Positions 16,711 through 19,600 of a stretch of DNA of 64,000 nt are shown piece by piece; within the stretch, counting starts at the first letter, position 1, and every line of letters begins with the position of its first letter. This DNA is from an uncultured Ignavibacteria bacterium (GTDB lineage Bacteria > Bacteroidota > Ignavibacteria > Tepidaquicellales > OLB5): assembly GCA_937873695.1 (NCBI GenBank), contig CALMYL010000008.1, forward strand, positions 1 to 64,000, written 5' to 3'. The notes beneath the pieces were generated by a model. It was not told the origin of the DNA. It did no database searches and worked only from the letters and a program-made list of their open reading frames with translations. The position numbers were made by a program, and so were the translations under genes.

Positions 16711-17349
16711 TTAATCGTTTAGAACCAGTTTGTGTTTAATAGCATAGTGAGTAAGATCAACATTTGATTTCAGGTCCATTTTTTCAAGTATCCTTGAACG
16801 GTAAGTACTAATTGTTTTTACGCTCAAAGAGAACTTATCGGCAATTTGAGTAAGCGAGTAACCGGATGCCAGCAGGCACAATACCTGGAATTCCCTTTCA
16901 GATAGGTCATCATGAGGCTCTTTGCCGGCGTCTTTGTTCACGGAAAAAATCAGCGTTTCAGCAAGTGAACTGCTGATATATTTGCCCCCGTTTATGACTT
17001 TTTTTATTGCCCTTATAAGTTCGCCGGGAACGCTGTCTTTGTTAAGATAGCCATCGGCGCCCGTTTTAATTGCTCTTACCGCAATTTCTTCTTCAGGGTG
17101 CATAGATAAAATCAGTATTTTTAATTCAGGTTTTTTCTGCTTTATCTCTATCAGGCAGTCCAGCCCGCTCTTGCCCGGCATAGTGATATCCAGAATGAGC
17201 AGGTCCCAGGGCTGCTTTTCAAGCTGGCTGAATATTTCATCACTGTTTGATGCTTCTCCAAGCACCTGCATATCTGTTTCATCAGAAAGTATCTGTTTTA
17301 TACCGCGTCTTACAACGGAATGGTCATCAGCTATTAGTATTTTTATCAT
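16711..17349 (-). CDS. NarL/FixJ-type response regulator (LuxR HTH)
   Basis: A 212-residue transcription factor. The receiver has D8/D9, phospho-acceptor D54 (LLILDITMPGKSG) and K104. The C-terminal LuxR-type HTH lies at about 148-208 (LSEREFQVLCLLASGYSLTQIADKFSLSVKTISTYRSRILEKM). Its ATG is 6 bases after the stop of the partner kinase, so the two form an operon. Targets are unknown. Confidence 0.94.
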   Translation of the reverse strand: MIKILIADDHSVVRRGIKQILSDETDMQVLGEASNSDEIFSQLEKQPWDLLILDITMPGKSGLDCLIEIKQKKPELKILILSMHPEEEIAVRAIKTGADGYLNKDSVPGELIRAIKKVINGGKYISSSLAETLIFSVNKDAGKEPHDDLSEREFQVLCLLASGYSLTQIADKFSLSVKTISTYRSRILEKMDLKSNVDLTHYAIKHKLVLND

Positions 17350-17355
17350 ATATAA

Positions 17356-18444
17356 TTAATTGGTTTTCTGTTTTAGCGGAACACTTAGCACTATTTCAGT
17401 TCCTTTATTTTCAGCAGAGCGGATCGCAAGGCTTCCGTTGATAACATCGGCTCGCTCCTGCATACTTATCAGTCCCAGCGATTTGGTTTGTCTAATTTTG
17501 TTTTCAAGGTTAAAACCGGTGCCGTTATCCTTTATACTGAGTATTAATTCATCTTTCTTCAATAATGCTTTTACTTCAACCCTTGTACATTTTGAGTGGC
17601 GGGTAATATTTGTTATTGCTTCCTGGAATATCCTGAATACAGTGATGGAGCCTGTACTATCAAGGTTTACGGGAAGGTCAGGAACATTTAATACAGTTTC
17701 TATGCCTGATCTTTTTCTGAAATCTTTCAGAAGGCTTTCAATAGCCGGCAATATTCCAAGCTGGTCAAGCAGCCTGGGTCTCAGGTCAGAAGAGATCCTT
17801 CTTACGGTGCCAATGGTATTTTCTACTATGCCCGAAAGATTGTACATTCTGTCAACAATATCCGGATCACTTGCGTGCTTTTTGCTGATCCACATTATTT
17901 CGAGGTTAATAGCTGTTAGTGATTGTCCCAGTTCGTCGTGTATCTCCCTGGCTATTCTTACGTTCTGTTCTTCCTTAATAGATTCAATTTTTTTGTTAAG
18001 CTCTCTCAATTGACTGCTTTTCTGAACAAGCTCTGCTTTCGATTTCTTGTGTTCTCCAATTTCTTTAACAAGTTCTTCTGTCCGCTGTTTTATCAGGTTT
18101 TCCTGGTTATCTCTAAGCAGTCTAAGCTTGGAAATAAGCAGTGTGACCACAGTAAAGAATCCCAGCCTGACCAGTGTACTCCAGTAGTTAAGAACAAAAT
18201 TAGTGATCTCTTGGAATCCGTTAGTATCCATATAGAACCACACTACAGAACATATAAGCGCGAACAGCAACCCGTAGTACTTATTTGTATTCCATGTGAC
18301 AAATGCGATAGGTATCAGGTAAAAAATGGAGAAAGATACTTCGTTGGTAGTAAAGTAATCAGTTAACGCAACTACCGAAACAAGAACTACTCCAATAAAT
18401 AGTTTTGCAGGTAAACCGGCATTTTTTAAAAAATCACGTATCAA
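17356..18444 (-). CDS. NarX/DegS-type sensor histidine kinase
   Basis: A 362-residue membrane kinase. Three or four transmembrane helices lie in residues 12-107 with almost no loops, followed by a coiled coil at 110-160. The HisKA_3 dimerisation domain has H-box AREIHDELGQSL (His169). The HATPase_c domain ends the protein, with the RHSKCTRVEVK segment and the nucleotide-binding DNGTGFN, SLGLISMQERA and GTEIVLSVPL. It should phosphorylate the NarL-type regulator encoded 6 bases downstream. The absence of a periplasmic domain suggests it senses a membrane-associated or internal signal. Confidence 0.93.
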   Translation of the reverse strand: MIRDFLKNAGLPAKLFIGVVLVSVVALTDYFTTNEVSFSIFYLIPIAFVTWNTNKYYGLLFALICSVVWFYMDTNGFQEITNFVLNYWSTLVRLGFFTVVTLLISKLRLLRDNQENLIKQRTEELVKEIGEHKKSKAELVQKSSQLRELNKKIESIKEEQNVRIAREIHDELGQSLTAINLEIMWISKKHASDPDIVDRMYNLSGIVENTIGTVRRISSDLRPRLLDQLGILPAIESLLKDFRKRSGIETVLNVPDLPVNLDSTGSITVFRIFQEAITNITRHSKCTRVEVKALLKKDELILSIKDNGTGFNLENKIRQTKSLGLISMQERADVINGSLAIRSAENKGTEIVLSVPLKQKTN

Positions 18445-18630: not shown

Positions 18631-19086
18631 CTACTTCTGCAAAGGCAAATTTCTTTTTGACCATTCGTCAATTCCCCCTATTATGTAGTGTATTTGGGGA
18701 AAACGAAGCTCCTTCATTAATTCAAATGCCATAGCCCCTTTTCTCCCGTTTTGATCAATTATTATGTATCTCTTGCTGCGTTCCAGGTTACTTATCTTAT
18801 CAGGGAAATCAGGCATGCTAAAATCCAGATTCACGGAATTTTCAATCTTTAAGGAATCGAATTCACGGCCGGTTCTGATATCCAGAAGGACTACGTCAGC
18901 ATCGCCTTTGTGATTTTCCAAAAAAACGGAAGCTTCCTCAACGGTTATTTTATCGCTTCTCAGGGAAGGGAACAGGTACTCACATCCCTGGACGGTTAAC
19001 AGCAATGCCAATATTCCGATCAATTTAATCCTTTTTCGAATGAAAGCGGGATAGAAATTCATACTGTGAAGAAGTGATTTTTTCAT
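18631..19086 (-). CDS. Lipoprotein with a rhodanese-like domain lacking the catalytic cysteine
   Basis: A 151-residue exported protein. A basic start and hydrophobic segment (residues 18-34) end in the lipobox-like VQGC, with Cys35 as the likely lipidation site. Residues 45-150 are a rhodanese fold: ITVEEASVFLENH, VVLLDIRTGREF, IENSVNLDF and YIIGGIDEWSKRNLPL. The active-site loop, normally CxxGxRS, reads DQNGRKG here, with Asp111 in the cysteine position and Lys116 in place of the arginine. Sulfurtransferase activity is therefore not expected. I infer a binding or sensory role at the envelope. No operon partner is apparent. Confidence 0.82.
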   Translation of the reverse strand: MKKSLLHSMNFYPAFIRKRIKLIGILALLLTVQGCEYLFPSLRSDKITVEEASVFLENHKGDADVVLLDIRTGREFDSLKIENSVNLDFSMPDFPDKISNLERSKRYIIIDQNGRKGAMAFELMKELRFPQIHYIIGGIDEWSKRNLPLQK

Positions 19087-19209
19087 GGTGCCAATTTCCT
19101 TTATCCAAAAATACTCAAAAATTGGTTAAAATTCAAAAAAATAAGCCAAATTATGAATACCTGAATGTAATTAAATTCACTACAAGGCTTTAGCACATAT
19201 TACTATATT

Positions 19210-19237
19210 TTTGAGGCTGTTCAAAGTGTTATGTTTG
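19210..19237 (+). promoter_or_regulatory. Bacteroidota-type promoter candidate
   Basis: TATGTTTG at 19230-19237 fits the TAnnTTTG -7 box used by the primary sigma factor of Bacteroidota. TTTG at 19210-19213 lies 16 bases upstream, slightly closer than usual for the -33 box. It would start a transcript near 19244 that ends at the terminator at 19600. Such short boxes occur by chance in AT-rich DNA. Confidence 0.35.
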
Positions 19238-19306
19238 TATAGAAAGATTAATTGAATAGTTCATTAAATAGTTAGTTAGATAGTTTCAAAATGGTTAATT
19301 AGATTT

Positions 19307-19533
19307 ACCCTTATGATTTTCAGGTTTCACCCCGAAATAAAGTTTTACCCTTATGAGCAGAATCCGGAACCCTTATGTAAACATGAAGCGAACCCTTATG
19401 AAAATGTAACAGAACCCTTATGAGTATGAAAAGCAGCCCTTATGAAAAGCAGTAGTGAAACCCTTGTGAAATATGAAGGACCCTTACGAAAGATTTGGTT
19501 TACCCTTGCGACTGGATGGCGCTGCCCTTATAA
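19307..19533 (+). repeat. Ten phased copies of a 10-bp core, ACCCTTATGA
   Basis: Cores begin at 19307, 19347, 19369, 19392, 19414, 19436, 19460, 19480, 19502 and 19524. The steps are 40, 22, 23, 22, 22, 24, 20, 22 and 22. A weak extra copy (ACCCCGAAAT) lies at 19329, exactly 22 after the first. Substitutions increase to the right (TTGTGA, TTACGA, TTGCGA, TTATAA). The 12-base spacers are A/G-rich but not conserved. A 22-bp step is two helical turns and is not a multiple of three, so selection on a nucleic-acid site fits better than a peptide repeat. Confidence 0.85.
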
Positions 19534-19549
19534 ATAAATAGATTGGTTT

Positions 19550-19600
19550 AAGCCGGTTGTAATTGGGATAGAATAGCCCAAACAACCGGTTTGTTTTTTT
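19550..19600 (+). terminator. Strong intrinsic terminator after the repeat array
   Basis: AAGCCGGTTGT (19550-19560) pairs with ACAACCGGTTT (19582-19592), with one G-U pair. An inner TTGGG/CCCAA helix (19563-19567 with 19577-19581) extends it, and TGTTTTTTT follows. The T-tract is on the plus side only, so it ends a rightward transcript, yet no gene precedes it. Confidence 0.85.

Follow-up and report, generated by a model that had tools for sequence, protein, structure and literature searches.

We asked what is formed by a row of short, similar cores, separated by dissimilar spacers, in a 64,000-nucleotide stretch of DNA from an uncultured Ignavibacteria bacterium; this whole stretch is referred to here as the window, and all positions without a genome handle are positions in it. 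A sequence-only reading had left two options for these cores, an untranslated RNA with many binding sites (a sponge) or a helical array of DNA operators, and our comparison of related genomes supported the first option and spoke against the second. We put at roughly 60% the probability that the locus encodes a non-coding RNA that acts as a multivalent decoy (sponge), a judgement drawn from comparison of sequences.

The core array and its distribution

A search for sequences matching ACCCTTATGA at 8 or more of 10 positions identified ten cores between positions 19307 and 19533, far above dinucleotide shuffles (mean 0.5, maximum 4, n = 500), in agreement with the number first proposed. All lie on the plus strand in a single orientation. 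Core 1 (ACCCTTATGA, 19307–19316) was shown by the genus comparison to carry a conserved leader, GTTAATTAGAT, and a trailer, TTTTCA; cores 2 (19347–19356), 4 (19392–19401) and 5 (19414–19423) are also ACCCTTATGA, and the others are core 3 (ACCCTTATGT, 19369–19378), core 6 (GCCCTTATGA, 19436–19445), core 7 (ACCCTTGTGA, 19460–19469), core 8 (ACCCTTACGA, 19480–19489), and the degenerate cores 9 (ACCCTTGCGA, 19502–19511) and 10 (GCCCTTATAA, 19524–19533). Terminal copies are degenerate in most relatives as well. The steps from core to core are 40, 22, 23, 22, 22, 24, 20, 22 and 22 bp. The first of these had been taken to hold a weak eleventh copy; however, conservation extends to the double gap (40, 49 and 39 bases in genomes G000, G005 and G011, respectively), which is without a core in relatives. 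A further set of ATAGTT motifs, said to recur every 12 bases, was found in this genome only, just the last (ATAGTTAATTAGAT, by core 1) being conserved.

Arrays at this common locus were found in 11 of 13 genomes of one genus (Ignavibacteria, 'OLB5' group), a count obtained by pattern search followed by promoter homology, histidine kinase synteny and direct reading. The carriers are G000, G001, G002, G003, G005, G006, G008, G009, G010 and G011, together with G012, which has a degenerate form of three copies; copy number ranges from 3 to 11 per genome. Across the 11 genomes the core has the consensus CYCTTRTGA, and among 89 cores, a few of which are matches at chance level, CC(C)TT hardly varies. 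Steps are 15–27 bp, mostly 22–24 bp, with occasional double gaps of 35–49 bp, so the term "phased" does not describe the array, and with such irregular spacing consecutive cores fall on differing faces of the helix. The spacers, which are A-rich and C-poor (8.6% C), are not conserved across the genus while the cores are: four genome pairs gave core versus spacer identities of 0.97 vs 0.78, 0.91 vs 0.65, 0.85 vs 0.61 and 0.86 vs 0.53, with two of the six pairs showing a small gap (0.79 vs 0.75 and 0.77 vs 0.73).

That the array is real and functional-looking, as these comparisons indicate, bears on its reading as a tandem repeat, selfish or neutral, whose place next to a promoter is accidental. 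Adjacent units are near-identical in G008 and G011, spacers included (those of G008 are near-perfect 23-bp units), which indicates that units are born by tandem duplication and that only the core is later kept; multiplication of this kind is what a neutral repeat would show. However, the cores persist as the spacers diverge, and copy numbers are alike at one locus across species, and we regard accidental adjacency as very improbable. A decayed tandem duplication with cores and spacers equally diverged is disfavoured by the same identities, even though units do multiply by duplication.

In G004 the array has been lost as a whole unit and both flanking genes are retained (G004:C2; L302:3139-3394), and in G007, which is 64% complete, no array was seen. 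A pattern search over 59 relatives found the array confined to the genus; among 391 genomes of the class there were no arrays outside it, two other matches being plain tandem repeats. The matches listed in a scan of contigs for arrays were likewise mostly constant-step tandem repeats, and phage DNA gave no match to the array.

The predicted transcription unit, its neighbours and a second RNA gene

The array is preceded by a Bacteroidota-type -7 promoter box of the form TAnnTTTG (TATGTTTG, plus strand, 19230–19237) and followed by a one-direction intrinsic terminator (AAGCCGGTTG...CAACCGGTTTG plus a T-run, plus strand, 19550–19600), both of which had been described from the sequence. The box varies between species yet stays compatible, as TATGTTTG, TAACTTTG and TAATTTTG all fit TAnnTTTG, and conservation in the promoter region covers ~70 bp comprising a palindrome, an ACTAT stretch and the -7 box. 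The palindrome is imperfect (TGTAATTAAATTCACTACA, plus strand, 19166–19184; consensus TGTARTn7AYTACA), is conserved across the array loci, and is a putative activator site with its centre ~68 bp before the predicted start. In the terminator hairpin 86% of cells are paired and 6 pairs have changed on both sides; neither this pairing percentage nor the covariation score was reached by any of 500 shuffles, which ignore relatedness. As promoter, array and terminator are kept together, in one orientation, in 11 of the 13 genus genomes, they appear to be one unit read on the plus strand, from which we infer a non-coding RNA of ~358 nt (19243–19600, the start being approximate). Rfam gave no matches above the gathering score in the window. 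The predicted structure of the array region was not above that of shuffles, no conserved hairpins were seen around the cores, and predicted accessibility of the cores gave no consistent signal, the cores being no more accessible than in spacer-shuffled controls.

On its other side the promoter faces a divergent gene for a rhodanese-domain protein (minus strand, 18631–19086), followed by a HisKA_3 sensor histidine kinase (minus strand, 17356–18444), syntenic in the genus and a candidate controller, and a NarL/LuxR-type response regulator with Response_reg and GerE domains (minus strand, 16711–17349), a candidate activator of the RNA. This order of array, rhodanese gene, kinase and regulator is the same in all genus members with enough contig, and the gene downstream of the array encodes a Gfo/Idh/MocA oxidoreductase (GFO_IDH_MocA) or NamZ. 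The sister-genus genome G013 has the kinase and regulator without the rhodanese gene and without the array. Since G004 and G013 both carry the pair in the absence of an array, the pair probably predates the array, and the link between regulator and array is one of synteny.

A second small-RNA gene (L386:1501-1766, equivalent to G000:C8:507286-507551; homologues L387-L395) was spotted through palindrome copies at G000:C8:507292, within a short unit that has a terminator at its end. Its promoter has the palindrome, array-like spacing to within a base, and TATATTTGTATAG. Homologues are present in 8 of the 13 genomes, with two copies each in G005 and G002. The RNA carries a CCCTTCTGATTTTTACC element (CCCUUCUGAUUUUUACC) that matches the first core of the array, and in a joint alignment of both RNA types the promoters align, as does the element CCCTTMTGATTTTYA, which corresponds to array core 1 with its conserved trailer. 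Nine of the ten copies of the second RNA encode a peptide of 14–22 residues ending in NPF. All ten share an unchanged CCC-TTC at synonymous sites, with the Asn codon and the stop codon varying, and copy G002a, whose ORF is lost, retains the element along with ACCCTTTCGGTTTTCA, which suggests that the element is important at the nucleic-acid level. From these comparisons the array RNA gene and the second RNA gene look co-regulated and related.

In 1.66 Mb of G000 the full promoter layout occurs at only three intergenic sites, namely those of the two RNAs and one before another response-regulator/kinase locus. This palindrome-type site (G000:C8:109627, upstream of MPYNMLIVEDSDL...; L292 in G009) precedes a further response regulator and a large HisKA_3 kinase, which suggests that the regulon takes in signalling genes. 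Other palindrome copies are present in the genus and some are orthologous. For instance, in four genomes (L287, L288, L277 and L278) the palindrome stands 44–47 nt before the gene of a secreted 458-residue protein, with a conserved G-run (AGGGGG) after it in the presumed leader, and in four genomes (L262, L263, L264 and L273) a palindrome-like site lies between divergent rpiB-like and PAS-like sensor genes.

Partner, targets and rival explanations

Searches for the proteins known from sponge systems identified no CsrA (PF02599) in any of the 13 genomes, positive controls being detected, and no Hfq (PF17209), with controls again working. Proteins with an RRM domain (PF00076) were found only in G007 (L326), the 64% complete genome in which no array was seen, and in G012 (L327), which has the three-copy degenerate array; there were none in genomes with full arrays. 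With n = 2, this confinement of RRM to genus members that lack a full array may be coincidental.

If the partner were an RNA, the cores would be seeds that pair with complementary AAGGG-bearing sRNAs or mRNAs, and the transcript a multi-seed antisense regulator or sRNA sponge. Such pairing would be in keeping with the substitutions at core positions 1–8 of the non-terminal copies (9 C-to-U and 11 A-to-G changes, against 2 U-to-C and no G-to-A), almost all of which are compatible with G-U wobble; however, these counts include orthologous core copies and hence are not independent, and position-specific constraint accounts equally well for the spectrum. In addition, the second RNA has a C at the A/G position, which would break the pair. 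The TCAYAAGGG sites of G000, G002 and G009 were all catalogued, and the majority were inspected in their sequence context; no noncoding site was common to the three genomes, and the number of sites was below that of a reversed-pattern control. Conserved sites were either coding or located in a hairpin-rich region of two genomes, and we rejected them as partner RNAs; that in the XerC/D recombinase, for example, encodes HTLMNY inside the coding frame and is not at its start. Near-complements of the extended core, sought in 0.86 Mb, gave no clear candidate. Pairing of the core with Shine-Dalgarno sequences was dropped as use of these is weak, and pairing with the anticodon loop of tRNA-Met was dropped as the conserved CCC would not pair. 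On this evidence seed pairing seems to us unlikely. Given the lack of a complementary RNA in these searches, and an element in the second RNA that breaks the pairing rule, an RNA-binding protein is the more likely partner.

The cores could also serve as DNA, either as operators or as architectural sites, with transcription through them incidental, and iterons and operators are indeed typically short direct repeats about two helical turns apart. The steps here, 15–27 bp and mostly 22–24 bp, do not hold to one helical face, however, and we rejected an operator or iteron array for want of regular helical phasing. Moreover, the array always stands in one orientation, with a conserved promoter before it and a covarying terminator after it, and the core element recurs in a second promoter-terminator unit, all of which makes a DNA element improbable. 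A proposal of translation, or of action on the ribosome, with each core offering an AUG or GUG as start-codon bait or as the start of a short peptide, draws on the R at position 6, which yields these two triplets, and on the NPF peptide of the second RNA. Against it, the units do not have lengths divisible by three and frame is kept neither between copies nor between species, variants with ACG, GCG or AUA occur, CCCUU (CCCTT) precedes none of 678 start codons, and the CCC-TTC of the second RNA is invariant at synonymous sites and in the ORF-less copy; we find translation as hard to credit as accidental repetition. What the sponge RNA has in its favour over these is the company of promoter and terminator in 11 of 13 genomes, conservation of core over spacer, the loss of the entire array in G004, and the presence of a second RNA gene whose promoter is alike and which bears the core element.

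A classical sponge should mimic sites in its target mRNAs, and it thus counts against the sponge reading that the core is not enriched elsewhere in the genome or in 5' regions (1.66 Mb). Among mRNAs with a core at the start codon the only case was a ComEA-like gene in G000 and G009, which was weak and was set aside. On the minus strand at G000:C6:116453, ACCCTTATGGTTTTCT (14 of 16 positions matching the extended core) is located right behind a TAATTTTG box; this site, in the leader of a secreted 450-residue protein, marks a possible candidate target mRNA.

Proposed mechanism and comparison with known systems

The comparison points to a discrete, ORF-less transcription unit with several copies of one motif, as expected of a decoy RNA, which would also bind and titrate a regulator, and the view of the locus as a gene for a regulated RNA has good support in the 13 genomes compared, all of one genus. 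We propose that a signal would activate a transcription factor, for which the neighbouring NarL-type response regulator is a plausible candidate; bound to TGTARTn7AYTACA ~68 bp upstream, this factor would drive transcription that starts at the TAnnTTTG promoter and ends at the intrinsic terminator. The resulting RNA of ~350 nt would display 3–11 copies of CYCUURUGA, each of which may bind one molecule of a post-transcriptional regulator and so draw it off its targets, and the second small RNA, with its element CCCUUCUGAUUUUUACC and like promoter, would mean that at least two RNAs act on one partner.

RNAs of the CsrB and RsmZ type have so far been regarded as adjuncts to CsrA or Hfq, and the sponge design proposed here has a different motif in bacteria where neither protein was detected. 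The array could thus be a bait for finding a new RNA-binding regulator in a large, little-studied group, and the variation already present in the genus (copy numbers from 3 to 11, a single clean loss, cores with changes) lends itself to tests of dose dependence. In addition, the second RNA with its small ORF hints at how one ancestor may have given rise both to a short coding RNA and to a multi-site decoy.

Several known repeat systems resemble the array in part. A CRISPR array is ruled out by the 10-nt cores and the variable length of the spacers. Type III antitoxin RNAs (ToxI) are also tandem-repeat RNAs with a terminator, but in these whole repeats are conserved, unlike the array, which conserves only the core; we rejected a type III toxin-antitoxin RNA as there is no toxin gene after the array, the downstream gene being GFO_IDH_MocA. 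The nearest studied system of sRNAs and an RNA-binding protein in related bacteria is RbpB/FopS of Bacteroides, a multicopy sRNA family with a 5' element in common (PMC11697453); however, that system has many genes with one seed each, whereas the array is one gene with many sites, and in genomes with a full array no RRM protein was found. The Pseudomonas Hfq decoys CrcZ, CrcX and CrcY, of which CrcZ has six ARN repeats (PMC4063720), share with the array RNA several copies of a repeated motif, but the motif here is CYCUURUGA and Hfq was found in 0 of 13 genomes. RsmX/Y/Z and CsrB/C offer a further parallel in design: they are likewise untranslated, carry many copies of a short motif and comprise several co-regulated RNAs. 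RsmY and RsmZ have a palindrome at about -75 that is driven by a two-component system with a NarL-type regulator (PMC4950607, PMC2375449), the GacA site of rsmY being TGTAAG-N6-CTTACA at about -75 (PMC4950607), and the array palindrome, TGTARTn7AYTACA at about -68 beside a NarL-type regulator/kinase pair, resembles it in form and place. Unlike the GGA of Csr/Rsm RNAs, which is presented in hairpin loops, the array motif is CYCUURUGA with no conserved hairpins seen around the cores, and the array occurs in another phylum, with CsrA absent from the searches of all 13 genomes. By analogy, the array RNA would work like RsmXYZ/CsrB or CrcZ and be a member of neither group, having another motif and no cognate protein detected. 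We tentatively suggest, at somewhat less than even odds, a lineage-specific form of post-transcriptional control in which at least two co-activated CYCUURUGA RNAs, under the kinase/NarL-type pair, titrate a new RNA-binding regulator where CsrA and Hfq are undetected, a logic like that of Gac/Rsm which would have evolved independently and with other parts.
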